Assembly (NCBI GenBank): GCA_023244795.1
Contig: JAHFLR010000021.1
Location: 1 to 10,029 of the forward strand
DNA length: 10,029 bases
Direction: 5' to 3'
Source of the DNA: a bacterium
GTDB taxonomy: Bacteria > Patescibacteriota > Minisyncoccia > UBA9983
Shown here: one piece after another, positions 643 through 9,404 of the stretch
Layout of the letters: every line of letters begins with the position of its first letter
Numbering within the stretch: position 1 is the first letter of the stretch
Notes under the pieces: generated by a model
Told to the model about the DNA's origin: nothing
Seen by the model: the letters and a program-made list of their open reading frames with translations, nothing else
Database searches by the model: none
Translations under genes and position numbers: made by a program

Positions 643-657
643 ATGCCGAAGGTGCCC

Positions 658-697
658 AAAAGAAAAAGCCGGCGGCGCGAGAAGCGCGCACACCGGC
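658..697 (-). terminator. Rho-independent terminator of the 705-1139 gene
   Basis: Plus-strand arms GCCGG (668-672) and CCGGC (693-697) enclose an inner perfect 5-bp stem, GCGCG (675-679) with CGCGC (685-689), around a 5-base loop. Read on the minus strand the hairpin is followed by TTTTTCTTTT (658-667). It sits 8 bases past the stop codon at 705 and upstream of the rpsL promoter. No T-run follows on the plus strand, so it acts in one direction. Confidence 0.75.
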
Positions 698-704
698 CAC
701 GAAC

Positions 705-1139
705 CTACTTGGGGCTGGAAGGAGGTTGCGTGTCGCCATCCTCCTCCCCGTCCTCTTCTTCGTGTTCACAACAAATCTCAATATGGAAACCCGAGATTCC
801 CCCAAAGATTCCACAAAAGACCATCCCGAATCCGCAGCAGATGAGCGCGAAGTCTACAACTTGACGCAAAGAAATGGTGGAACCGCTGCTCGTGGTCACG
901 AGTACAACGAAAACGCTACCGATCAAGATATCGAGAACGCCTCGAATACTCATGCCTATCCTGCACACCAGAAAAAGGGTTAGGGCCATTACGCCCATAG
1001 AGCCGCCAACGAAGATGCCCAGGTTCCCGCCGATGTACTTACGGAGTTGCGCGGCAATCAGGATCATAGCTACGGCGATAACCGTGATAACCCAAGAAGA
1101 CGACCAATGATTTGGGGTCTTTTCGGATCTTGCTTCCAC
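705..1139 (-). CDS. Orphan small membrane protein, four predicted helices, acidic tail (cassette 1)
   Basis: I do not recognise this protein. The reading frame is open up to 1220, but the likely start is the GTG at 1139 because AAGGAG (1146-1151) lies six bases upstream; no such site precedes the farther ATG. The 144-residue product has a short polar N-terminus, hydrophobic helices at about residues 16-30, 39-59, 66-83 and 95-118, Cys pairs at 101-102 and 123-124, and a strongly acidic, Ser/Pro-rich C-terminal tail (EEED, GEEDGD). The helices are rich in Gly and small residues. Base composition is richer in GC than in the neighbouring core genes. The gene stands alone, with its own promoter (1201-1228), a small hairpin in the leader (1153-1167, TCGGC/GCCGA) and its own terminator. 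Membrane location is inferred from hydrophobicity; the function is unknown. Confidence 0.7.
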   Translation of the reverse strand: MEARSEKTPNHWSSSWVITVIAVAMILIAAQLRKYIGGNLGIFVGGSMGVMALTLFLVCRIGMSIRGVLDILIGSVFVVLVTTSSGSTISLRQVVDFALICCGFGMVFCGIFGGISGFHIEICCEHEEEDGEEDGDTQPPSSPK

Positions 1140-1200
1140 TTTTTTCTCCTTTTCGGCTATATGCCGATGTTGTAGGGTGCGGAATACGAATCTAAACAGA

Positions 1201-1228
1201 ATACTACTACATTTGACCAAAAAGTCAA
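1201..1228 (-). promoter_or_regulatory. Candidate promoter of the 705-1139 gene, with an inverted repeat over the -35
   Basis: On the minus strand TTGACT (1223-1228) is followed after 16 bases by TAGTAT (1201-1206). An inverted repeat covers the -35 region at 1210-1231: the arms CATTTGAC and GTCAAGTG pair over 8 positions with one G-T pair around a 6-base A-rich centre, so a repressor site is possible. A run of nine C lies just upstream at 1235-1243. The leader to the GTG would be about 55 bases. Confidence 0.45.
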
Positions 1229-1261
1229 GTGGCGCCCCCCCCCGCAGAAGCGTGGCAAATC

Positions 1262-1876
1262 CTACAAGAAAAAGTGTAAAATCGTTTGGATGATTGGAGA
1301 AATATAATTACCAAAAAAGACGATAAAAATTATCAGGAAAATAAAGCCGTACTTCTCTAAAATGTTCTCTATGTGTTGGAGGCCCCTTGGCAATAAGGCA
1401 AAAAGTATTTTTGAGCCGTCGAGCGGCGGGAGAGGCAAAAGGTTAAAGGAGCCCAAGCTAACATTAACTATAATTATTAGTGTCGCCACATTTAAAAAGG
1501 CCGGGGTCATAAAGGACAAAGCGCCGCCATAATGGACAATCAAGCTAAAAATACCGGCGATTATAAAATTGGAGGTTGGCCCGGCGGCGCCGATTAGCCC
1601 TCCCCCGATTTTTGGATTAACCGCTTTTATGTTGTATGGATTATACGGCACCGGCTTGGCCCAGCCAAAAATCATACCCGAGGACAAATAAAAGACAGTG
1701 GGCACCAAAAACGATCCCAGAAACTCTAGGTGCTTGATTGGGTTAAGAGTAAGCCGGCCCTCGTACTTTGCCGTTGGGTCGCCCAAGAGATATGCAGTAA
1801 AGCCGTGCGAGACCTCGTGCACAATGACCGACATCAGCAAAATCAGTATGGAAAATATAAAATCAACTCCTTGCAT
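1262..1876 (-). CDS. Site-2 protease family (peptidase M50) membrane metalloprotease
   Basis: Intramembrane zinc metalloprotease of the S2P/M50 family, compact type without a PDZ domain. Zinc-ligand motif HEVSH is at residues 20-24 in the first helix, AAGPTSN at about 97-103 matches the conserved AGP..N segment, and LPLPPLDG at 147-154 carries the third zinc ligand D153. Helices occur at about 6-25, 52-72, 94-115, 124-150 and 172-200. At 204 residues it has the usual length for this bacterial Rv1735c/YwhC-like group. Family members cleave membrane-embedded substrates, often in regulated proteolysis; the substrate here is unknown. The gene diverges from rpmB across a 32-base gap. It has no Shine-Dalgarno, and its -10 lies only 13 bases before the ATG, implying a very short leader. 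Confidence 0.9.
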   Translation of the reverse strand: MQGVDFIFSILILLMSVIVHEVSHGFTAYLLGDPTAKYEGRLTLNPIKHLEFLGSFLVPTVFYLSSGMIFGWAKPVPYNPYNIKAVNPKIGGGLIGAAGPTSNFIIAGIFSLIVHYGGALSFMTPAFLNVATLIIIVNVSLGSFNLLPLPPLDGSKILFALLPRGLQHIENILEKYGFIFLIIFIVFFGNYISPIIQTILHFFL

Positions 1877-1889
1877 AAATAGTGTTTGT

Positions 1890-1898
1890 ATTATAGCA
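1890..1898 (-). promoter_or_regulatory. Extended -10 promoter of the M50 protease gene, back-to-back with rpmB
   Basis: The minus strand reads TGCTATAAT, a perfect extended -10 (TATAAT at 1890-1895). Start of transcription near 1883 would leave a leader of only about 7 bases before the ATG at 1876. The same bases read TATTAT (1889-1894) on the plus strand and may serve as the -10 for rpmB, so the two genes probably share an overlapping, mutually exclusive promoter. No good -35 is evident for either direction. Confidence 0.55.
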
Positions 1899-1908
1899 TA
1901 TTGTTGTT

Positions 1909-2106
1909 ATGACAAAAGAATGTTCATCGTGCGGCAAGGGCACAATAATGGCCAGAAAGAGAAATCTTTTAAGAGGCAAATATAACCCAACCGATAAATC
2001 AAAAAGATACCCCAACTTACAGTGGGCTAAGATTGACGGCAAACGGGTAAAAGTTTGCACTTCTTGCATAAAAAAACAAAGCAAGGTTAGTAAAAAGGCC
2101 AAATAA
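1909..2106 (+). CDS. rpmB: 50S ribosomal protein L28 (bL28), short zinc-ribbon form
   Basis: L28 is a small basic protein of the 50S subunit near the E site. The 65-residue product has the C+ form of the family: CSSC at residues 5-8 and CTSC at residues 50-53, able to bind one zinc, with PNLQ (35-38) followed by a short strand and KRVKVC, as in L28. It is shorter than the 78-residue E. coli protein, which lacks the cysteines and has a longer C-terminus. The tail is lysine rich. There is no Shine-Dalgarno before the ATG, and the intergenic gap to the divergent protease gene is only 32 bases. A terminator starts inside the stop codon region, so rpmB is a single-gene unit. Confidence 0.85.
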   Translation: MTKECSSCGKGTIMARKRNLLRGKYNPTDKSKRYPNLQWAKIDGKRVKVCTSCIKKQSKVSKKAK

Positions 2107-2126
2107 TCCGCTACGGCGGATTTTTT
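2105..2126 (+). terminator. rpmB terminator with UACG tetraloop
   Basis: TCCGC (2107-2111) pairs with GCGGA (2116-2120), extended by two A-T pairs, around a four-base TACG loop closed by C-G. C(UACG)G is one of the very stable UNCG tetraloops. Six T follow (2121-2126). The hairpin begins within the rpmB stop codon. Confidence 0.85.
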
Positions 2127-2128
2127 GG

Positions 2129-2209
2129 CTCGCCCGTAGGGTTACGCCCGAGGGAGGAGTGCCAGCCTCGCCCGTAGGCTGTAAATAATTGAATAGGGAG
2201 GAGTGCCAG
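2129..2209 (+). repeat. Imperfect tandem duplication containing the 5' end of tRNA-Ser
   Basis: Two blocks repeat in the same order. CTCGCCCGTAGG occurs at 2129-2140 and 2167-2178. AGGGAGGAGTGCCAG occurs at 2151-2165 and 2195-2209. The second copy of the latter is the start of tRNA-Ser (2197-2209), so the upstream copy is a detached piece of the tRNA's first 13 bases with two flanking bases. The units are about 38-44 bases apart with unlike spacers. Confidence 0.75.
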
Positions 2210-2286
2210 AGTGGTTTAATGGGACAGTCTTGAAAACTGTTAGGTCCGCAAGGGCCTCGTGAGTTCGAATCTCACCTCCTCCGCCA
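2197..2286 (+). tRNA. tRNA-Ser (anticodon UGA)
   Basis: The acceptor stem GGAGGAG (2197-2203) pairs fully with CTCCTCC (2276-2282), followed by discriminator G and an encoded CCA (2284-2286). The anticodon arm has stem ACAGT/ACTGT and loop CTTGAAA, giving anticodon TGA. The long variable arm (AGGTCC, GCAA, GGGCCT) and the T-loop TTCGAAT fit a class II serine tRNA. It is the only one of five tRNA genes here with an encoded CCA. A piece of its 5' end is duplicated upstream, and a terminator follows. Confidence 0.96.
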
Positions 2287-2295
2287 AAAATTAAC

Positions 2296-2319
2296 CGGCT
2301 CTCAACGAGCTGTTTTTTT
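2296..2319 (+). terminator. Terminator after tRNA-Ser
   Basis: CGGCTC (2296-2301) pairs with GAGCTG (2307-2312), with one G-T pair, around the loop TCAAC. Seven T follow (2313-2319). It ends the tRNA-Ser transcript and separates it from the downstream orphan gene. Confidence 0.75.
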
Positions 2320-2330
2320 GTCTTTACGAT

Positions 2331-2359
2331 TTGATTCTTGCCCCTTATTTTGCTAGTTT
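2331..2359 (+). promoter_or_regulatory. Candidate promoter of the 2424-3113 gene
   Basis: TTGATT (2331-2336) and TAGTTT (2354-2359) are 17 bases apart, and TGC directly precedes the -10. A start near 2366 would give a leader of about 58 bases before the GTG at 2424. The -10 match is only moderate. Confidence 0.4.
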
Positions 2360-2423
2360 TTAATTGGAATCACAAAGCACATACCAAGCACAATTATGCA
2401 CAACCGAAAACAGGAGGCCCCTC

Positions 2424-3113
2424 GTGAAAGAGAAAGAGGAAAAGATAGTTTTTATTGCGCATCCGATTAAGGGAGATGTGCTGGGCAACTCAAGCAAGGT
2501 TTTGGAAATCTGCAAAAAAATACATTCCGATAAGATTATCCCCTTTGCTCCCTACCTTGTGTTGCTGAGCTATCTCAACGATGACGACCCAATGGAGCGT
2601 GAGCTCGGCATTGCCGCAAGCCTCAAGGCCTTTTACCGCGGCTATATCGATGAGCTCTGGCTTTACGGCGATTGCATCTCCGCCGGCATGAAGAAGGAGA
2701 TACTTTTGGCGCTCGACCTCGGCATACCTATTATCCCCAAAACCCCAGAGACCAAAATAGGATTGGCGGAAATCGTGGAGACACTTAACACCGCCAACGA
2801 AGAGAGCGCTAGCGACGACCGCCTCGCCGAAGCAACAAACGGCAAGCTGCACTGGAACGATCCGGGCATGACCGACCTCGAGGAGGGCTGGGAAGACTTC
2901 CCCATCGGCACGTTCGTTGAGGTTAGGACGGATGACAATATTTGGCGCGCAGGAATGGTTGTTGAAACCTGGGAGGAAAACGACCGCGGCATCGAGGTGC
3001 GCTGCAACGATAAGTGGCACGACAACCTTGAGTTCTACGGGGGTCATGGCGCCAGCGTGATGGTCTACATGAACACCCGCCGAGGTATCCTTTCCAATAT
3101 TCGCAAATTGTAG
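2424..3113 (+). CDS. DUF4406/nucleoside deoxyribosyltransferase-like protein with C-terminal beta domain (cassette 2)
   Basis: The start is taken as the GTG at 2424 because AGGAGG (2412-2417) lies six bases upstream; the frame is open to a TTG at 2364 that lacks such a site. The 229-residue product has two parts. Residues about 7-104 resemble the DUF4406 / nucleoside 2-deoxyribosyltransferase-like Rossmann fold: strand KIVFIAHPI, then IPFAPYL, NDDDPMER, IDELWLYG and SAGMKKEI, where D76 and E92 sit like the family's acidic active-site residues. A variable linker follows. Residues about 160-229 (PIGTFVEVRTDD, IEVRCNDKWHDNLEFYGGHG) suggest a small all-beta, perhaps SH3-like, domain that I cannot name. 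Members of this fold often occur in phages and as orphan accessory genes; substrate and partners are unknown. The gene is alone, GC-richer than its neighbours, with its own terminator. Confidence 0.75.
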   Translation: MKEKEEKIVFIAHPIKGDVLGNSSKVLEICKKIHSDKIIPFAPYLVLLSYLNDDDPMERELGIAASLKAFYRGYIDELWLYGDCISAGMKKEILLALDLGIPIIPKTPETKIGLAEIVETLNTANEESASDDRLAEATNGKLHWNDPGMTDLEEGWEDFPIGTFVEVRTDDNIWRAGMVVETWEENDRGIEVRCNDKWHDNLEFYGGHGASVMVYMNTRRGILSNIRKL

Positions 3114-3125
3114 CTTCTGCTTTTT

Positions 3126-3163
3126 GAGGCGGGCGAGAGAGATCTCCCCGCCTCGTTCTTTTT
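3126..3163 (+). terminator. Terminator of the 2424-3113 gene
   Basis: GAGGCGGG (3126-3133) pairs perfectly with CCCGCCTC (3147-3154), with an inner GAGA/TCTC helix, followed by GTTCTTTTT. The tail TTCTTTTTAAAAACAA (3156-3171) is repeated identically after the terminator of the other orphan gene at 4597-4612. Confidence 0.85.
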
Positions 3164-3175
3164 AAAAACAAAATA

Positions 3176-3184
3176 TGCTAAAAT
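3176..3184 (+). promoter_or_regulatory. Extended -10 promoter of the 3192-3908 gene pair
   Basis: TGCTAAAAT (TAAAAT at 3179-3184) ends exactly seven bases before the ATG at 3192, so transcription probably starts at or next to the start codon. The -35 region (TTCTTT, 3156-3161) is poor. Confidence 0.5.
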
Positions 3185-3191
3185 TTAATTT

Positions 3192-3344
3192 ATGAGCGAA
3201 ACAAATTTAGATAAATACAACGATCCCCAACCAATCTCTAGTGATATGGATAAGTTTAAAACCGATTTAGAGGAAATGACATCCGCCATCCTCATGAGAG
3301 TAACCTCAGAGGAAGATGGGGTTTATCTTTATTGGGATTTCTAA
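3192..3344 (+). CDS. Small protein of 50 residues, unknown
   Basis: This short frame has ATG at 3192 and TAA at 3342-3344. The product begins MSETNLDKYNDPQPISSDMD and ends GVYLYWDF. It is acidic and soluble-looking, with a probable helix in the middle (about residues 19-38) and no cysteine, signal or membrane segment. Support for it being real: an extended -10 lies seven bases before its ATG, it stays open through a region otherwise lacking a gene, and it ends nine bases before the next start on the same strand, so the two form a pair. No Shine-Dalgarno is present, as for other core-type genes here. I know no homologue; the function is unknown. Confidence 0.65.
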   Translation: MSETNLDKYNDPQPISSDMDKFKTDLEEMTSAILMRVTSEEDGVYLYWDF

Positions 3345-3353
3345 AAAATAACC

Positions 3354-3908
3354 ATGCAAGATATCATCGTCAAAAAAAGAGAGGGAGAAAAAGTGGAAGT
3401 AAACAAAAAAGCAGAGCAACTTGCTCCGGAAAAGATTATCCCAACCAACCCGGATATTTTGGAGTGGAGCATGCCGGAATACATTTTTAAAAACAAGAGC
3501 AACGACTGGTATTGGTCGGTGGGTATAATCGCTCTTGCCCTAGTGGCGCTGGCTTATTTTATCAACAATTTTTTCTTTGCGGTTATCGCTATCATCGGCG
3601 GTTTTGCAATGATGTTATTGGGCGCCAAAAAACCGGTCGTTCTCAATGTTAAAGTCTCTCCAAAAGGAATAACGATTAACAAAACAATATTTTTGATGGA
3701 GGACATAGAATCTTTTTGCCTCAACGAAGATCTCCCCGAGGAGCCGAGACTTTTTATAAAACTTAAAAAGGGCCTCTCGAGATTTGTTAGCATCCCAATT
3801 AATAAAGGAGAGGAGAAGAGAGCGGAAGACTTTCTTAAAAAGTTTTTGGTAGAAGAAACTCTTTCGGAGTCTTTTACCTTGATTTTAACCCGGCTTTTGG
3901 GTATTTAA
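3354..3908 (+). CDS. Two-helix membrane protein with C-terminal cytoplasmic beta domain, unknown
   Basis: The 184-residue product has a charged N-terminal segment (about 1-50, including LEWSMPEYIFKNKSNDWYW), two closely spaced helices (about 53-70 and 73-90) forming a membrane hairpin, then about 90 residues alternating hydrophobic strands with charged turns (VVLNVKVSPKGITIN, LFIKLKKGL, FVSIPI) and a final helix. The layout resembles small PH-like or DUF5673-like membrane proteins common in CPR genomes; that resemblance is from memory. Both termini probably face the cytoplasm. It follows the 50-residue gene by nine bases and precedes tRNA-Arg by 12, so all three may share a transcript. Start ATG at 3354 has no Shine-Dalgarno. 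An in-frame ATG lies at about codon 40, but the upstream residues look genuine. Confidence 0.75.
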   Translation: MQDIIVKKREGEKVEVNKKAEQLAPEKIIPTNPDILEWSMPEYIFKNKSNDWYWSVGIIALALVALAYFINNFFFAVIAIIGGFAMMLLGAKKPVVLNVKVSPKGITINKTIFLMEDIESFCLNEDLPEEPRLFIKLKKGLSRFVSIPINKGEEKRAEDFLKKFLVEETLSESFTLILTRLLGI

Positions 3909-3920
3909 TTAAATAGCCTT

Positions 3921-3992
3921 GCCCTTGTAGTTCAACGGATCGAATGCAGGCCTGCGAAGCTTGCGATCGAGGTTCGACTCCTCGCAGGGGCA
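3921..3992 (+). tRNA. tRNA-Arg (anticodon GCG)
   Basis: The acceptor GCCCTTG (3921-3927) pairs with CAGGGGC (3985-3991) with one T-G pair; the discriminator is A. D-arm GTTC/GAAT, anticodon stem CAGGC/GCTTG with loop CTGCGAA, and T-arm CGAGG/CCTCG around TTCGACT are all present. The anticodon reads GCG, decoding CGC and probably CGU. Acceptor and D-arm closely match the tRNA-Arg(UCU) at 9577-9648, supporting arginine identity. CCA is not encoded. Most bacteria read these codons with an ACG tRNA whose first base is converted to inosine, so GCG is unusual. Confidence 0.9.
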
Positions 3993-4000
3993 CAAAATAA

Positions 4001-4014
4001 GAGGTTTTTACCTC
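4001..4014. other. Small perfect hairpin after tRNA-Arg
   Basis: GAGGT (4001-4005) and ACCTC (4010-4014) enclose TTTT. On the plus strand the next bases are ATATAT rather than a T-run, so it is at best a weak terminator of the tRNA transcript. It lies just upstream of the promoter at 4025-4052. Confidence 0.35.
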
Positions 4015-4024
4015 ATATATAAAA

Positions 4025-4052
4025 TTGACTTTATTATAATACATGCTATAAT
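4025..4052 (+). promoter_or_regulatory. Strong promoter of the 4145-4534 gene
   Basis: TTGACT (4025-4030) and a perfect TATAAT (4047-4052) are separated by 16 bases, and TGC just before the -10 makes it an extended -10 as well. This is one of the strongest-looking promoters in the window. Transcription would start near 4059, giving a leader of roughly 85 bases. Confidence 0.75.
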
Positions 4053-4053
4053 T

Positions 4054-4115
4054 AAGGCAGAAAAAATTGTTCTGCCTTTTGGCTACGCATTGGCCCAGTA
4101 AGCCACGCGCTAGCC
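4054..4115 (+). promoter_or_regulatory. Structured 5' leader: two consecutive hairpins before cassette 3
   Basis: The first hairpin pairs AAGGCAGAA (4054-4062) with TTCTGCCTT (4070-4078) around seven bases and is followed by TT, so it could act as a weak early terminator or an RNA-protecting 5' stem. The second pairs GGCTA-CGC-TGGC (4081-4094) with GCCA-GCG-TAGCC (4102-4115), with a small internal loop, one bulged C and the loop CCAGTAA. The Shine-Dalgarno AGGAGG (4131-4136) lies outside both stems. I cannot match this to a known riboswitch; a cis-acting RNA is inferred only from the pairing. If transcription starts near 4059, only part of the first stem would be transcribed. Confidence 0.45.
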
Positions 4116-4144
4116 GATTGGCAAAATTGAAGGAGGGAAAGAGG

Positions 4145-4534
4145 ATGAGTACCTGGATCTGCCTCAAGCATTACGGGCCGTACCGAGAGGGGCTCGGCTT
4201 CGTTATCGCGACAGCGAACGCCGATGACATCGCCGACCTGGTGCGTCTGCTGGACGCGGGCGCGCTCAAGCCCGCGCCGCAGAAGCAGTGCGCGTGTGGC
4301 GGCAAGTGCGGGGGCAAGGAGCCCGAGAGCTCCCCGTTCGCCCACCCTGCGGTGCAGGAGTGGCTGCAGAGCTGTCATGTGCTGTTCCAGCGTGTGCTGG
4401 ACCAGAACGAAAAGCTGGCGGCCGAAAACAAGCAGCTCACCGAAGCGAACGACGCGTTGCGGGCGGAGAGCAATCTCCTGCGCGCCAACAGCACGCCGGG
4501 GTACAACCCGCTCAACTTCGGTCTCCCACTCTAG
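4145..4534 (+). CDS. Orphan Cys-cluster and leucine-zipper protein (cassette 3)
   Basis: I do not recognise this 129-residue protein. The start is the ATG at 4145, eight bases after AGGAGG (4131-4136). Residues 1-41 form a small alpha/beta-looking segment (TWICLKHYGPY, ADDIADLVRLLDAG). C49, C51 and C55 lie in CACGGKC, a possible metal or disulfide site. Residues about 78-115 form a coiled coil with V84, L91, L98, L105 and L112 exactly seven apart and N88, N95 and N102 at the matching a positions, a pattern that favours parallel dimers. The tail is short and Pro/Asn rich. Composition is very GC rich: 40 of the 60 bases at 4201-4260 are G or C, against 25 of 60 at 3541-3600 in the membrane-protein gene. 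It stands alone between a strong promoter with structured leader and a strong terminator. The function is unknown. Confidence 0.7.
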   Translation: MSTWICLKHYGPYREGLGFVIATANADDIADLVRLLDAGALKPAPQKQCACGGKCGGKEPESSPFAHPAVQEWLQSCHVLFQRVLDQNEKLAAENKQLTEANDALRAESNLLRANSTPGYNPLNFGLPL

Positions 4535-4560
4535 CTCTAGGGGGGCGGCAACCTCCGATT

Positions 4561-4604
4561 AGAGCCCCGCGCGGGATTCGCATCCGCCGGGGCTCTTTCT
4601 TTTT
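4561..4604 (+). terminator. Terminator of the 4145-4534 gene
   Basis: AGAGCCCCG (4561-4569) pairs perfectly with CGGGGCTCT (4588-4596). An inner GCGG(G)AT/ATCCGC helix caps on TCGC. The tail is TTTCTTTTT. The following TTCTTTTTAAAAACAA (4597-4612) is identical to the sequence after the other cassette terminator at 3156-3171. Confidence 0.88.
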
Positions 4605-4633
4605 AAAAACAAGAAGCCCCGCAAATGCGGGGC
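4605..4633 (-). terminator. rpsT terminator
   Basis: GCCCCGC (4616-4622) pairs with GCGGGGC (4627-4633) around AAAT. On the minus strand it is followed by TTCTTGTTTTT. It may also stop plus-strand read-through, since ACTGTG and six T follow at 4635-4647, so convergent insulation between cassette 3 and rpsT is likely. Confidence 0.75.
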
Positions 4634-4685
4634 AACTGTGTTTTTTGAGAGTCCGTCTAAGCTTTAGGCGAAGGCGATTTAGAGA

Positions 4686-4943
4686 TTATTTTTTTAGAGA
4701 TTTGGCTAACCTCGATTTTTTGCGGTCGGCTGCTCCCTTTTTGATAACTCCCCTTTTGGCCGCCTTATCGATAGCTCGGTAGGCAGCGGCGAGCATGTTT
4801 TGAGTCTCTTGAGCTTCTCCGGTTGTTTTAAGTTGTTTAACTTTTTTAACAACTTCCTTCATCGCTCGAGATCTCTTTGAGTTTATCGCCTTTTTTCTCT
4901 TTGATTGGCGCAAGGCCTTTTTTGCTGATTTTGTTATTGGCAT
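4686..4943 (-). CDS. rpsT: 30S ribosomal protein S20 (bS20)
   Basis: S20 binds 16S rRNA in the body of the 30S subunit and is a three-helix bundle. The 85-residue product shows the family features: MPITKSAKKALRQSKRK at the start, the K-R-rich first helix (INSKRSRAMK), then AYRAIDKAAKRGVIKKGAADRKKSRLAK, the conserved C-terminal block. Length equals the usual 83-90 residues. It is transcribed alone, divergent from ruvA, with a terminator at 4605-4633. There is no Shine-Dalgarno: the start codon lies six bases after a -10-like TAAAGT, so the mRNA may start at or beside the ATG. Confidence 0.95.
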   Translation of the reverse strand: MPITKSAKKALRQSKRKKAINSKRSRAMKEVVKKVKQLKTTGEAQETQNMLAAAYRAIDKAAKRGVIKKGAADRKKSRLAKSLKK

Positions 4944-4949
4944 GGAATT

Positions 4950-4978
4950 ACTTTATCAATTTTTGTTAAAAAATGCAA
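4950..4978 (-). promoter_or_regulatory. rpsT promoter, near-leaderless
   Basis: On the minus strand TTGCAT (4973-4978) and TAAAGT (4950-4955) are 17 bases apart. Only six bases separate the -10 from the ATG at 4943. The element overlaps the ruvA promoter on the other strand (4963-4990), so the two units may compete. Confidence 0.5.
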
Positions 4979-4990
4979 ATGCTCTATAAT
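4963..4990 (+). promoter_or_regulatory. ruvA promoter, leaderless
   Basis: TTGTTA (4963-4968) and a perfect TATAAT (4985-4990) are 16 bases apart. The ATG at 4998 begins seven bases after the -10, which is where transcription itself should start, so the ruvA mRNA is predicted to begin at its start codon. Confidence 0.65.
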
Positions 4991-4997
4991 GTAAGTA

Positions 4998-5579
4998 ATG
5001 ATAGCCAAGATAACCGGGGGTGTAATACTAAGCGCGGAGAAGTTTGTTGTTATTGAAGCCGGCGACGGCGTTGGGTACAAAGTTTTTGTGCTGCCCGAGT
5101 TTTTTAGAGAGCACAAAAAAGAGAGCGCCGTCTCCGTTTGGACCTTTTTGAGAGTACGCGAAGACGAGATGAGCTTATACGGATTTTTAGAGTATGCCGA
5201 ACTGGAGTTTTTTGAGCTACTACTTTCTGTTTCCGGTGTCGGCCCCAAATCGGCAATGAACATCCTCTCTATCGCCCCACTAGATATTTTAAAGAGAGCG
5301 GTCTCGGCCGGCGATGTTTCTTATCTCACCAAAGTCTCCGGCATCGGCCGTAAAATTGCCGAAAAGATTGTGCTGGAGCTTAAAGAAAAAATGGGAGCCA
5401 CCGCCTCCACCGAGGAGGGCAAGGCCATGCTCAAAGACGACCAAGACACCATTGAGGCGCTACAATCGCTCGGCTACAGCCAACGCGAGGCCCGCGACGC
5501 GCTAAAAGAAATACCGGAATCAATCTCCGGCATCAGCAACAAAGTAAAAGAAGCGCTCAAGCTTTTGGGCAAAAAATAA
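4998..5579 (+). CDS. ruvA: Holliday junction branch migration protein RuvA
   Basis: RuvA forms a tetramer that grips the four-way DNA junction and loads the RuvB motor during recombination and repair. The 193-residue product has the full domain order: N-terminal OB fold (about 1-63, starting MIAKITGGV), two helix-hairpin-helix motifs (GVGPKSA at 80-86 and GIGRKIA at 115-121) and the C-terminal RuvB-contacting domain (about 150-193, EALQSLGYSQREARDAL). Residues D56 and E57 within the REDEMSLYGF segment match the acidic junction-splitting loop of the family. Length is typical. ruvB and ruvC are not adjacent. It is divergent from rpsT and convergent with the ABC ATPase gene, 14 bases from its stop, with no obvious terminator between them. 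Confidence 0.96.
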   Translation: MIAKITGGVILSAEKFVVIEAGDGVGYKVFVLPEFFREHKKESAVSVWTFLRVREDEMSLYGFLEYAELEFFELLLSVSGVGPKSAMNILSIAPLDILKRAVSAGDVSYLTKVSGIGRKIAEKIVLELKEKMGATASTEEGKAMLKDDQDTIEALQSLGYSQREARDALKEIPESISGISNKVKEALKLLGKK

Positions 5580-5593
5580 TACCGGAGATATTT

Positions 5594-6571
5594 TTACGGC
5601 TTAAAGATATGGCGAATTACGTCATCAACATCGGCTTCGTCTATAACAATATCGTCTACCGGTAAATTTGAGGAGAGCAAAGCAACCGCCACTTCTTTGG
5701 CTTTTTCTCTGCTAGTTTTAATGGTGCAGCTGTAAGGAGTAAAATCATCCACCTCGCCGAACCTTTGCGCCTCCTCTTTTTTGATGCCGTTTTCGCTAAA
5801 AGTGATTTTTAGCAATTTGTGAGGCGCGTATTTTTTAATAAGATCTTCCAGCTTGCCGTCGTAAATTATTTTACCCAAGTTAACAATCACCACCCGCTGG
5901 CAAAGCTCTTTAATATCCTCCATGTAGTGGGAGGTTAAAATAACGGTAGTCTTATATTTTTGATTATATTTTTTTATAAAGTCGCGGATATTTTTTTGCG
6001 CCACCACATCTAGCCCGATGGTTGGCTCATCCAAAAATAAAACTTTAGGCCGGTGCAAAAGAGCGGAGACGAGCTCGCACTTCATCCTTTGGCCGAGAGA
6101 AAGTTTTCTAACCTGGATGTCTAAAATGTCTTTAATATCAAAAACATTTATTAACTCCTCGAGTGTTTCGTTAAATTCTTTGTCTGGTATCTCGTAAATC
6201 TCCTTGTTAACAATAAAAGTTTCGATAGCGGGCAAATCTTTAATTAGCTGGTTCTTTTGGCCGGTTACCAGCGCAAATTGTTTTTGATATGCCGGCTCTC
6301 TCTTGGAAGGGTCAAAACCCAGTACTTGCGCAGAGCCACCCGAGGGCTGCAAAATGCCGGAGAGCATTTTTAAGGTTGTGGTTTTACCGGCGCCGTTGGG
6401 CCCCAAAAAACCGACTAGCTCGCCCGGCTCCACCTTAAAGCTAATGTCTTTAACGGCCTCCGAGTAAAGTTTTTTTCTGTAAAAAAGAGATTTTAAAGAA
6501 CCGGCAAATCCTCGCTGTTTCCGGTAAAACTCATATTTTTTAGATAAACTTTTTGCTTCGATTATCGGCAT
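5594..6571 (-). CDS. ABC transporter ATP-binding protein (COG4586/NatA-like)
   Basis: Cytoplasmic ATPase that powers an ABC-2 type exporter. The 325-residue product contains Walker A GPNGAGKT (57-64), Q-loop Q105, signature LSLGQ (157-161), Walker B VLFLDE (177-182), D-loop and H-loop H215 in LTSHYMED. An N-terminal insertion before the core (about 14-38, FYRKQRGFAGSLKSLFYRKK) and a C-terminal domain of roughly 90 residues fit the COG4586 group, usually encoded beside permeases of the COG4587 and COG3694 types. The substrate is unknown. It lies five bases after the permease gene on the same strand and is certainly co-transcribed. No Shine-Dalgarno is present; translation may depend on coupling to the permease gene. 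It converges on ruvA. Confidence 0.94.
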   Translation of the reverse strand: MPIIEAKSLSKKYEFYRKQRGFAGSLKSLFYRKKLYSEAVKDISFKVEPGELVGFLGPNGAGKTTTLKMLSGILQPSGGSAQVLGFDPSKREPAYQKQFALVTGQKNQLIKDLPAIETFIVNKEIYEIPDKEFNETLEELINVFDIKDILDIQVRKLSLGQRMKCELVSALLHRPKVLFLDEPTIGLDVVAQKNIRDFIKKYNQKYKTTVILTSHYMEDIKELCQRVVIVNLGKIIYDGKLEDLIKKYAPHKLLKITFSENGIKKEEAQRFGEVDDFTPYSCTIKTSREKAKEVAVALLSSNLPVDDIVIDEADVDDVIRHIFKP

Positions 6572-6576
6572 AATTT

Positions 6577-7371
6577 TTAAATTCCTACCCCTTCGTACCT
6601 TTTAAGACCGCGGTTCCAAACTATTTTAATAATTCCATAAAGCGCGGCAATCCAAACAATTTGCACCAACAAACCCTTAACCCCGGCCATTAAACTCATT
6701 TTGTTTAAATAAATCTGCGCCGGCACAAAAAAGGAATAGGCAAACGGCAAAAGAAAACTAACTTTTACAAAAGCCAGCGGAAGCAAGCTGATTGGAAAAT
6801 ATCCTCCGGAAAAAAACTTTTTAACTCTTTCTATTGTGGCATAAAGACCGTCTGTTTCGTCTACCCAAAAAGCAATAAGGCCAACCAAATACGAAAGCAG
6901 CAGCTCGGTAATAAAGGCCAAAATAACCATCGCAGCAATCAGCAATATACGCAAAATATTAAAGTTCCAAATAAAAGAGCCGGCGAAAAACAAAATTACC
7001 ACAGCCTGAGAGAGTATCGACATAATAGTAGCCACCGAAATGCGACCGATTTCTCTGGAGATAATAAAACTAAAATAACTCATCGGCCGAACCAGCGCCA
7101 TGGAAAGATTGCCGTCTTTAATATCTCCGGCCACGAGACTGGCCAAAAAGTTTCTAATCATCACATAAAAAATGTTACCTATAAGCACATAGGTAATCAT
7201 TTCCTTAAGCGTTAGGCCGCTAATGGTATGCTGGCCACCATAGATGGCGCTCCACATCAGAACCAGAACCGCCACCTCGCCCATCTCGCCCACTCGATAG
7301 GCAAAAATGGTAAAGCGGTATGTTAGCGCCCTTTGCCAGAACGCTTTGATGATGGTTAATATCTTTTTCAT
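6577..7371 (-). CDS. ABC-2 family transporter permease (COG4587/DUF990-like)
   Basis: Integral membrane part of the exporter powered by the ATPase encoded next. The 264-residue product has six hydrophobic segments (about 30-45, 57-80, 110-131, 138-169, 190-218 and 230-252). The cytoplasmic motif DGNLSMALVRPMSY (86-99) matches the conserved 'G.ls..LlrP' segment of this permease family. Related systems usually encode two unlike permeases; here only one is present, since tRNA-Leu lies directly upstream and ruvA follows the ATPase gene, so a homodimer or a second subunit elsewhere is implied. The ATG at 7371 is only 17 bases after the tRNA 3' end, with no promoter between, suggesting a shared tRNA-mRNA transcript. 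Confidence 0.9.
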   Translation of the reverse strand: MKKILTIIKAFWQRALTYRFTIFAYRVGEMGEVAVLVLMWSAIYGGQHTISGLTLKEMITYVLIGNIFYVMIRNFLASLVAGDIKDGNLSMALVRPMSYFSFIISREIGRISVATIMSILSQAVVILFFAGSFIWNFNILRILLIAAMVILAFITELLLSYLVGLIAFWVDETDGLYATIERVKKFFSGGYFPISLLPLAFVKVSFLLPFAYSFFVPAQIYLNKMSLMAGVKGLLVQIVWIAALYGIIKIVWNRGLKRYEGVGI

Positions 7372-7388
7372 CTGATAGAAATTGTCTG

Positions 7389-7472
7389 TGCGCGGGAGAG
7401 GACTCGAACCTCCATGCCCTTGCGAGCGTTACCACCTCAAGGTAGTGCGTCTACCAGTTTCGCCACCCGCGC
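7389..7472 (-). tRNA. tRNA-Leu (anticodon GAG)
   Basis: On the minus strand, acceptor GCGCGGG (7466-7472) pairs with CCCGCGC (7390-7396); the discriminator is A at 7389. The anticodon region CTACC-TTGAGGT-GGTAA gives anticodon GAG, with a C-A mismatch at the bottom of the stem. The long variable arm (AACGCTCGCAAGGGC) and T-arm GGAGG/CCTCT around TTCGAGT fit leucine. CCA is not encoded. A TATAAT box ends five bases before the mature 5' end, so the primary transcript has almost no 5' leader. The ABC permease gene follows 17 bases later. Confidence 0.95.
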
Positions 7473-7477
7473 ATATG

Positions 7478-7483
7478 ATTATA
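7478..7483 (-). promoter_or_regulatory. -10 box of tRNA-Leu and probably the ABC transporter genes
   Basis: A perfect TATAAT on the minus strand, five bases from the mature tRNA 5' end. The upstream sequence is AT rich with no clear -35. Because no terminator lies between the tRNA and the permease gene, this promoter may drive all three genes. Confidence 0.5.
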
Positions 7484-7511
7484 TTAAACTTTTTAAATAT
7501 TTTTTCCAGCC

Positions 7512-7546
7512 CCAAAAAGAGACCGCCCCGACAAAAGATCGGGGCG
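7512..7546 (-). terminator. Terminator of the 7550-7855 gene
   Basis: CGCCCCGA (7524-7531) pairs perfectly with TCGGGGCG (7539-7546) around seven bases. On the minus strand GTCTCTTTTT follows, so the T-run starts about five bases after the stem. It sits three bases past the stop codon. Confidence 0.7.
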
Positions 7547-7549
7547 TAA

Positions 7550-7855
7550 TTAAAACCTAAAACCAGCTTGGCAACTGATTTCCACGCAAGGGGGATCAAC
7601 ATCAACCTTAATCCGTTGCCATGAGTACTTGTTCTGCTGAGGAAAAATCGCAATTTCTATTACCCACTTTAGTGGTCGGGGAAAATCTCCCTCCACCCGA
7701 CTCAAAACAGCCCTCGCCACATGCAAGCTGTCGCCGTAATTAATCTTTGGCTTGTAAGTTAGCGGGTCAATATAAATATTGCACTTCTGGCCCCAAGCAT
7801 TACCGGGAAGGGCCAAAAAACAAAAGAGTATCGCCACCCCAACAACCCTTTTCAT
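7550..7855 (-). CDS. Orphan small secreted protein (cassette 4)
   Basis: The 101-residue product begins with a clear signal peptide: MKRVV, a hydrophobic core (about 5-17), then PGNAWG, with probable cleavage after G22 (A at -3, G at -1). The mature part of about 79 residues has C25, C90 and C95, beta-type segments (HVARAVLSRVEG, LKWVIEIAIF, WQRIKVDVD) and ends in FRF. It is therefore exported, probably to the cell surface or medium. I recognise no family. The start is firm: GGAGGAGG (7860-7867) lies four bases before the ATG. It has its own -10 (7888-7896) and terminator and sits between rplS and tRNA-Leu, both on the same strand. Residues LSRVEG resemble a translated interspersed repeat I recall from CPR genomes, but the match at DNA level is imperfect. 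Confidence 0.72.
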   Translation of the reverse strand: MKRVVGVAILFCFLALPGNAWGQKCNIYIDPLTYKPKINYGDSLHVARAVLSRVEGDFPRPLKWVIEIAIFPQQNKYSWQRIKVDVDPPCVEISCQAGFRF

Positions 7856-9083: not shown

Positions 9084-9404
9084 TTATTTGCTACTGCGAT
9101 TTCTTTTGAGTCGGTCGATTTCTAGTTCCAGGGCAAGGGTGCCATTGTTTGCCCTCTCCAAGAGATTCTCTAGGCCCTTAACCATCACGCCGTCTCCTTT
9201 AGATTTTTCTATTTGCTGAGAAACAAAAGCCGATAGCTTTTTATCTCTTTTCTCAAGAGCTTCGCCAAACGCTCCGAGATCTATTCCGTTAAACATTGCC
9301 TCCTCCTCCGCAGAAATACTATAGGTTCGGGGAAGCTCAAAAAGCTCCTCTTGTTTGTCGGATTCGTTAGATTCGTTAGATTGATGTCTTTTTTCTCCGT
9401 CCAT
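9084..9404 (-). CDS. Hypothetical small acidic/basic helical protein
   Basis: I do not recognise this 106-residue protein. It has a polar, low-complexity N-terminus (residues 8-16, SNESNESDK, from a 9-base tandem repeat GATTCGTTA at 9361-9378), then segments predicted helical (AEEEAMFNG, FGEALEKRDKKLSAFVSQQIEKSK, GLENLLERANNGTLALELEIDRLKRN) with heptad-like spacing that suggest a soluble coiled-coil protein. No cysteine, signal peptide or membrane helix is seen. It is the first gene of a unit with the pseudouridine synthase, four bases apart, behind a consensus promoter at 9437-9465. The leader is about 26 bases without Shine-Dalgarno. Being tied to an rRNA-modification gene hints at a translation-related role, but that is only context. 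Confidence 0.75.
   Translation of the reverse strand: MDGEKRHQSNESNESDKQEELFELPRTYSISAEEEAMFNGIDLGAFGEALEKRDKKLSAFVSQQIEKSKGDGVMVKGLENLLERANNGTLALELEIDRLKRNRSSK

Follow-up and report, generated by a model that had tools for sequence, protein, structure and literature searches.

Why should four small genes carry strong Shine-Dalgarno (SD) sequences when the core genes around them start without one, in a lineage whose ribosomes appear to have lost the complementary anti-SD tail? The question is raised by a stretch of 10,029 nucleotides (hereafter the window: contig JAHFLR010000021.1 of assembly GCA_023244795.1, our contig C20) from a patescibacterium of the class Minisyncoccia (UBA9983), whose metagenome-assembled genome (MAG) comprises 573 kb in 83 contigs and is 84.7% complete. 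The first-pass annotation had singled out the four genes, here called cassettes A to D, as imported or exchangeable one-gene expression units that differ from the resident genes in how translation starts. The explanation that we consider probable is that they belong to a class of exchangeable accessory units spread over the whole genome, similar to minimal mobile elements (MMEs), in cells whose resident genes start without an SD. Such a unit would consist of one gene, sometimes two or three, with a strong-SD leader and usually a GC-rich terminator, set into a gap between core genes and in some cases just after a tRNA. The units would be drawn from a pool shared among Patescibacteria and would come, go and replace one another at fixed junctions, with DNA uptake and recombination as the simplest route. 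The resident genes would often have their promoter right on the start codon, in the manner of leaderless transcription and without an SD, which would fit ribosomes devoid of an anti-SD.

The signals that set the four genes apart are listed in Table 1. Each has an SD at proper spacing, with duplex energies of -9.3 (A), -10.7 (B), -13.5 (C) and -12.5 (D) kcal/mol for pairing with the canonical 16S tail. At their listed starts 12 of the 13 remaining genes of the window score only -4.3 to +1.3 kcal/mol, the exception being an ABC ATPase gene (5594-6571) that reaches -9.8 kcal/mol from a badly spaced purine run (p 0.20). In addition, the gene at 9084-9404 has an internal ATG at 9296 preceded at good spacing by GGAGGAGG (-12.1 kcal/mol); its true form may be a 70-aa SD gene, or there may be two starts. 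When the purine-rich leaders were shuffled as a control for their own SDs, the four gave p values of 0.07 (A), 0.004 (B), 0.06 (C) and 0.13 (D), so that single sites are not individually decisive and the weight of the argument rests on the class. GC content is 0.52, 0.52, 0.65 and 0.46 for A to D, and GC at third codon positions (GC3) 0.60, 0.67, 0.86 and 0.48, against a mean GC of 0.449 (sd 0.051) among 211 open reading frames (ORFs) in 40 stretches (244 kb) of the same genome that served as the own-genome sample; the deviation is strong for C, moderate for A and B and absent for D. Three of the four lie beside a tRNA gene: tRNA-Ser ends 138 nt upstream of B, tRNA-Arg ends 152 nt upstream of C, and tRNA-Leu lies 77 nt downstream of D. 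The original description of the SDs, the terminator hairpins, the higher GC of the first three genes and the tRNA neighbours is thus borne out, and the statement that the other genes lack SDs holds apart from the ATPase run and the internal start at 9296. The idea that each unit has transcription signals of its own stands for all four at the terminator; at the promoter it is suggested for A and C by sigma-70-like sites matching the consensus and for D by a -10-like hexamer ending 32 nt before the gene, and is not borne out for B, upstream of which none of the searched promoter hexamers was found.

Table 1. Cassettes, their associated signals and adjoining resident features (window positions; hairpin energies in kcal/mol)
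Feature	Position	Strand	Description
Cassette A	705..1139	-	144 aa, GTG start, SD AAGGAG 6 nt before start
Cassette B	2424..3113	+	229 aa, GTG start, SD AGGAGG
Cassette C	4145..4534	+	129 aa, SD AAGGAGG, GC 0.65, GC3 0.86
Cassette D	7550..7855	-	101 aa, SD GGAGGAGG
Promoter-like site of cassette A, TTGACT-16-TAGTAT	1201..1228	-	consensus match only
Promoter-like site upstream of cassette C, TTGACT-16-TATAAT	4025..4052	+	consensus match only
Terminator hairpin of cassette A, with T-run	655..704	-	-24.3, z -3.2
Terminator hairpin of cassette B	3117..3166	+	-23.7, z -4.1
Terminator hairpin of cassette C	4556..4606	+	-27.0, z -3.9
Terminator hairpin of cassette D	7510..7549	-	-19.3, z -4.0
tRNA-Ser(tga), resident	2197..2286	+	upstream of cassette B; adjoins L28 or 3354-type gene in family members
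tRNA-Arg(gcg), resident	3921..3993	+	upstream of cassette C
tRNA-Leu, resident	7388..7472	-	downstream of cassette D; tRNA-Leu(gag) after rplS in 9 family members
ruvA start, resident contrast	4985..5000	+	leaderless-type promoter whose TATAAT ends 7 nt before ATG

A strict SD scan of the 40 own stretches returned 64 matches, or 39 once nested and internal ones were removed; seven of these are late internal starts, and the other 32 include 21 with a terminator. Most SD-bearing genes in these stretches are small cassette-type units. Controls with 25 permuted motif sets, built on a narrower motif set than the scan that gave the 64 matches, yielded 2.8 +/- 2.0 (maximum 6) SD-plus-terminator units where 11 are present, and in 171 de-duplicated loci of relatives (1.54 Mb) 12.5 +/- 2.5 (maximum 17) where 65 are present; SD sites alone numbered 122 in the relatives against 50 +/- 10 (maximum 70). 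It is very improbable that the class is a by-product of purine-rich stretches standing before chance ORFs, since the combined signals exceed these controls, recognisable enzymes occur in the class and SDs are conserved between orthologues. That idea draws on the modest excess of SDs alone in the own genome (19 against 9.4 +/- 3.3, maximum 16), on the late internal starts among the 39 matches and on some matches in fusA that are internal artefacts, and single members of the class could indeed be chance ORFs.

The recognisable enzymes include an aldehyde dehydrogenase, a class-III aminotransferase and a thymidylate synthase, and the products of several units look by eye like lipoproteins or proteins with a signal peptide. 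An SD-borne thymidylate kinase of the own genome has 1025 relatives, and among the 120 listed those with an organism name belong to Patescibacteria, save one named only 'bacterium'. An SD-borne thymidylate kinase gene (PF02223) at L112:997-2069 is followed by an overlapping gene that looks ThyX-like, and a thymidylate synthase (PF00303) lies in an SD unit of a relative (L026:1458-2357), so the pool carries nucleotide enzymes. An SD-rich cluster (L018:5970-10112), in which two larger proteins accompany a ThiF/E1-like one (7017) and a small beta-grasp-like one (6752), resembles a ubiquitin-like conjugation operon, all of these names being given by eye. Some neighbouring SD units (L278:482-3881) appear to share a leader stretch like GCTATTTTGTTTTTGGATTGAAAATT before unrelated genes. 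Of the 18 tRNAs in the own genome four are followed on the same strand, after 72-152 nt, by an SD unit; a fifth case, at a distance of 280 nt, involves the internal start within 9084-9404, which is doubtful. SD genes in the own genome are also linked to a GC of at least 0.50 (9/23 versus 14/188, odds ratio 8, P 1.4e-4).

The resident genes present a different picture. Among 129 long resident genes the mean SD energy is -2.73, equal to that of shuffles (-2.64, P 0.63), so that SDs are uncommon before resident genes elsewhere in the genome as well. Instead, -10-like hexamers ending 4-9 nt before the ATG are in excess at operon-first genes, with 30 in the own genome against 10.9 expected, 40 against 15.3 in the family, 38 against 20.5 in family f30 and 49 against 20.5 in other relatives without an anti-SD; relatives that bear an anti-SD have 24 against 19.2. 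The distance from hexamer to ATG peaks at 6 nt in every group tested, and in the window it is 7 nt for ruvA, rplS and the ORF at 3192 and 6 nt for rpsT. Promoters abutting the start codon in this way form the pattern expected of leaderless mRNAs, which these resident genes would then produce. None of 30 cassettes has such a hexamer in that interval, in part by construction because the SD occupies the place. The proposal of a different start mechanism in the two sets of genes is supported by this contrast.

Loss of the anti-SD in the group is seen in the 16S genes of relatives. Searches of 11, 30 and 35 genomes (partly overlapping sets) gave a 16S match in 8, 25 and 28, and in total 47 distinct 3' ends after helix 45 could be read, 28 from genomes labelled as belonging to the class and 19 from Patescibacteria-like genomes, class not told, reached through their M50 loci. 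The anti-SD CCUCC is missing from 43 of the 47 (25/28 and 18/19, respectively), including all six readable ends of the window's own family; two of the 43 (L208 and L209) keep CTCCTT, and the four ends with CCTCC belong to G019, G049, G372 and G411. No relocated CCUCC is conserved within the 16S (26 aligned) or downstream in the spacer (47 tails). A 12-base word of the canonical tail, GATCACCTCCTT, occurs in seven of 30 genomes: three occurrences are the 16S tails of G372, G019 and G411, that of G049 lies outside its 16S (whose tail, GAATCACCTCC, is not caught by the word), that of G083 is antisense in gatB, and those of G044 and G010 are antisense to close SD matches. A second canonical tail elsewhere in the anti-SD-less genomes was therefore rejected; a shorter substitute for the lost anti-SD could exist. 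Because the window's MAG has no 16S, the state of its own tail is taken from its relatives, and the family points to loss of the anti-SD here too. The SD of the cassettes would then match a tail that appears to be missing from their ribosomes, and since resident genes have no SD and the anti-SD is almost always lost in this group, the SD would serve as a mark of the cassette pool.

Members of the window's family repeat, whole or in part, the order rpsL-M50-L28-tRNA-Ser(tga)-(3354-type gene)-tRNA-Arg(gcg)-rpsT-ruvA and rplS-tRNA-Leu, and the nearest named kin of the window's M50 protease gene are Patescibacteria and Parcubacteria MAGs. In tblastn searches none of the four cassette proteins was found in 40 loci from 10 family members. 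The gaps at these junctions were taken from BLAST matches, and small gaps may include gene ends. At M50/rpsL, the site of cassette A, four of eight readable members have 97-207 bp and the other four 329-1317 bp with different contents, including ORFs of 84 aa in G008 (preceded by GGAGG) and of 46 aa in G001 (AAGGAG). At the site of cassette B, tRNA-Ser/3354, the 3354-type gene of G004 begins a few nt past the tRNA, and four other members have 500-1320 bp without the cassette, with pilin-like ORFs (by eye) in two and a 51-aa ORF with GGAGG in G005. The tRNA-Arg/rpsT gap, which holds cassette C in the window, is 6-21 bp in five of eight members and 77 bp in one; G010 has a 79-aa ORF without an SD, and G002 an unrelated 215-aa unit with its own SD and terminator. 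Given the nearly absent gap in most relatives and the unit in G002, cassette C fills a gap that elsewhere is empty or otherwise occupied. At rplS/tRNA-Leu, the site of cassette D, all nine readable members have 44-263 bp and no cassette; a 70-aa ORF with GAGGAG in G004 was set aside, as it looks like the acidic end of rplS itself. Two side observations concern these loci: in the window a short tandem duplication at 2129-2209 (two copies each of AGGGAGGAGTGCCAG and CTCGCCCGTAGG, at a spacing of 38-44 bp) spans the 5' end of tRNA-Ser together with the region upstream of it, and in L173 and L174 (from G001 and G003) the orientation of tRNA-Arg(gcg) relative to the 3354-type gene is opposite to that of the window.

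The same variation extends to other junctions. Within a single genus, g37, the tuf-fusA interval holds one SD unit in G039 and seven in G083, and a gap of 113 bp in G039 corresponds to a 238-aa unit in G083. At M50/rpsL the loci L032 and L080 each carry a small SD gene of their own. In another unit of these two loci a 339-nt block, made up of the leader and the beginning of the gene, shows 97% identity, the 3' part of the gene 46% and the outer flanks 75-77%, a pattern that an exchange ending inside the gene would fit better than an exchange of both flanks. Taken with the tblastn result, the family junctions confirm that the four genes are not conserved at their loci. The description 'imported or exchangeable' is upheld at the level of presence and absence and of odd composition rather than of a transfer event. 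It is further qualified by another family of the class, where the GC of SD genes is ordinary and these genes keep to conserved positions.

The MMEs of Neisseria (Saunders and Snyder, 2002, as cited in PMC1538595) offer the closest likeness, since there too different whole genes stand between the same conserved genes without mobility genes. Shared conserved flanks with a different gene or none between them were found at tRNA-Arg/rpsT and M50/rpsL, and at tuf/fusA in G039 and G083, and the units are single genes without integrase, transposase or repeats of their own. MMEs are not defined by translation signals, whereas the cassettes carry an SD that residents lack, and the C-terminal half of cassette B, unlike an MME, occurs at unrelated loci behind different tRNAs. 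MMEs are exchanged through transformation and recombination in their conserved flanks; what is seen at the present junctions is presence and absence. Phage morons, too, are accessory genes that stand singly between core genes and bring a promoter and a terminator with them, but the cassettes lie among chromosomal ribosomal-protein, tRNA and other core genes rather than in a prophage. Genomic islands that target tRNA genes share the position downstream of tRNAs; unlike them, the units contain no integrase, and no direct repeat of a tRNA 3' end was found at the far side.

If the ribosomes cannot pair with it, what maintains the SD? Genus g37 is informative, as both G039 and G083 have tails without an anti-SD and share 83 largely syntenic orthologues. 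With a cut-off of -8.5 or less, an SD is present in both genomes for nine orthologues, in G039 only for two, in G083 only for five and in neither for 67 (odds ratio 60, P 3e-7). Nine of the 11 SD genes of G039 thus have an SD in G083 as well, at protein identities of 37-82%; these pairs are less conserved as proteins than the others (median 58% versus 78%, P 0.003), their leaders are otherwise near background identity, and the genes listed have ordinary GC. One of the nine pairs (L285, RarA-like by eye) is weak and perhaps due to chance, and for one aldehyde dehydrogenase pair, entered as one-sided, a better start gives an SD in each genome. In a second unit compared between L032, which lacks the anti-SD, and L080, whose tail is not readable, the SD block is 86% identical within a leader that is 51% identical. 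Because an anti-SD-less genus keeps the SD between orthologues with otherwise diverged leaders, the SD is probably still useful, and on balance we favour the view that it still helps translation of leadered cassette mRNAs.

These data bear directly on the possibility that the SD is a relic, the units having been recently imported from donors with normal ribosomes and now starting on an A-rich leader without pairing while a useless SD decays. The deviating GC and GC3 of A to C, the ORFan and patchy nature of cassette genes, the few relatives that retain an anti-SD (among them G372, where a relative of cassette B occurs) and the genus pair of the window's own family without orthologues sharing an SD would all suit such an origin, to which we assign a little less than an even chance. 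The retention in g37 despite diverged proteins and leaders, with ordinary GC, and the preserved SD block of L032 and L080 argue the other way. The long genes of four anti-SD-bearing relatives show little use of the SD, which led us to reject the SD as the normal style of such relatives and makes them not obvious SD-using donors. The counterpart is a cell with two start systems, leaderless SD-less residents and a mobile class whose SD is functional and must be read by something else, either a cell factor or RNA that replaces the anti-SD or the ribosome of another cell; we put this forward tentatively, as appreciably short of an even prospect. That the units are meant for another cell whose ribosomes are normal, for instance the host of the patescibacterium, and are delivered to it as DNA or RNA, is improbable. 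T-DNA, which carries plant-type signals, provides an analogy, and some SDs fit the canonical tail over 12-15 nt (L032, and over 15 nt in the family member G010) though the tails of those genomes lack it and no other copy of the word was found in them; the apparent signal peptides and lipoproteins and the ordinary enzymes suit expression in the patescibacterial cell itself.

Several observations weigh against the proposal of an exchangeable SD class in an anti-SD-less cell. In the window's own family the genus pair G002/G009 (35 orthologues) has no gene with an SD in both genomes, three with one and 32 with neither, and none of 13 orthologue pairs of G015/G044 has an SD on both sides; retention is accordingly shown in one genus of another family and not in the window's. 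The link between SD and GC deviation is absent from 78 loci of relatives (1231 genes, P 0.25), and for this reason GC is not part of the general definition of the class. The leaders of 31 own units have no word of at least 14 bases in common, and where their tails do share words this long, these are terminator T-tracts, with no recombination site among them. As regards integron gene cassettes, which have an attC site and depend on an integron integrase, this word comparison revealed no site common to the units. A search for exact words of at least 8 bases duplicated from the tRNA end in the five own cases found none for Ser, Arg, Ala or Met, and a 10-nt repeat for tRNA-Leu was dismissed as an overlap of two search ranges. 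The modest own-genome excess of SDs alone, the choice of start codons by rule and the missing 16S of the MAG belong on the same side.

The products of the cassettes are as patchy as their positions: absent from the family loci, they have few or no matches across the 383 genomes of the class. Cassette A encodes what appears by eye to be a membrane protein, with no Pfam family above the cut-off and, apart from itself, one weak class-wide match (25%, E 1e-4). The protein of cassette C, with a Cys cluster and a coiled-coil-like C-terminal part by eye, finds only itself among 5.8 billion proteins, and that of cassette D, with an apparent signal peptide by eye, has no match besides itself in the class genomes. 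Cassette B is a mosaic whose halves are each shared separately with other proteins. Its N-terminal half is DUF7768 (PF24963, E 2e-20), common to small Patescibacteria proteins, and its C-terminal half, some 95 aa long, recurs at 63-79% identity within other proteins with different partners, in one of which (P0031) it is joined to an N-terminal half that we label DUF4406-like. The predicted structure (pLDDT 82.5, pTM 0.59; best Foldseek E 4.6e-3) may combine a nucleoside deoxyribosyltransferase-like N-terminal half with a small Tudor/KOW (SH3-like) barrel, a naming that is suggestive only because no structural match reached E 0.001. The C-terminal half occurs in three of the 383 genomes (two beyond the own one), from three families, always behind a tRNA (Ser, Lys or Leu) at unrelated loci; the tRNA-Lys and tRNA-Leu copies, genes with the HWNDPG module in two other families (L202 and L203), share leader DNA, and the terminator of the tRNA-Leu copy resembles that of cassette B by eye. 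The start of the cassette B hairpin (AGGCGGGCGAGAG, window 3127-3139) recurs after another own SD gene (L114, downstream of 8388), and T-tracts like TTTCTTTTT recur in several cassette tails. A further protein, P0034, joins the HWNDPG module to what looks like a VirB4-like ATPase; as a possible assembly chimera it was set aside. The idea that phages serve as a reservoir of the cassette B module was rejected, as the module had no match in viral contigs.

The closest survey of anti-SD loss, by Amin et al. (2018; PMC6107228), lists 128 of 20,648 taxa, with a concentration in Bacteroidetes, Mycoplasma and Carsonella, and reports that a recognisable SD is generally missing from these organisms as well. 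The present lineage is like them in its 16S tails without CCUCC and its SD-less resident genes, and unlike them in that a subset of genes keeps the SD. A partial survey of the literature, including sections of PMC10582724, PMC6851277, PMC9723584, PMC8321222 and PMC12455944, contained no report of SD cassettes in anti-SD-less Patescibacteria; that the anti-SD is lost in this group may have been published before, in Tsurumaki et al. (2022) on ribosomes of the candidate phyla radiation or elsewhere. If the interpretation offered here is correct, it raises the puzzle of what reads the SDs of the cassettes in cells whose ribosomes apparently have no matching tail. Gene finders that score the SD in these genomes would flag accessory rather than core genes, and the SD would be a simple marker by which a mobile accessory gene pool could be read off the genomes of uncultured organisms. 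A sizeable group within the Patescibacteria would then constitute a natural test of the role of the SD once the anti-SD is gone.

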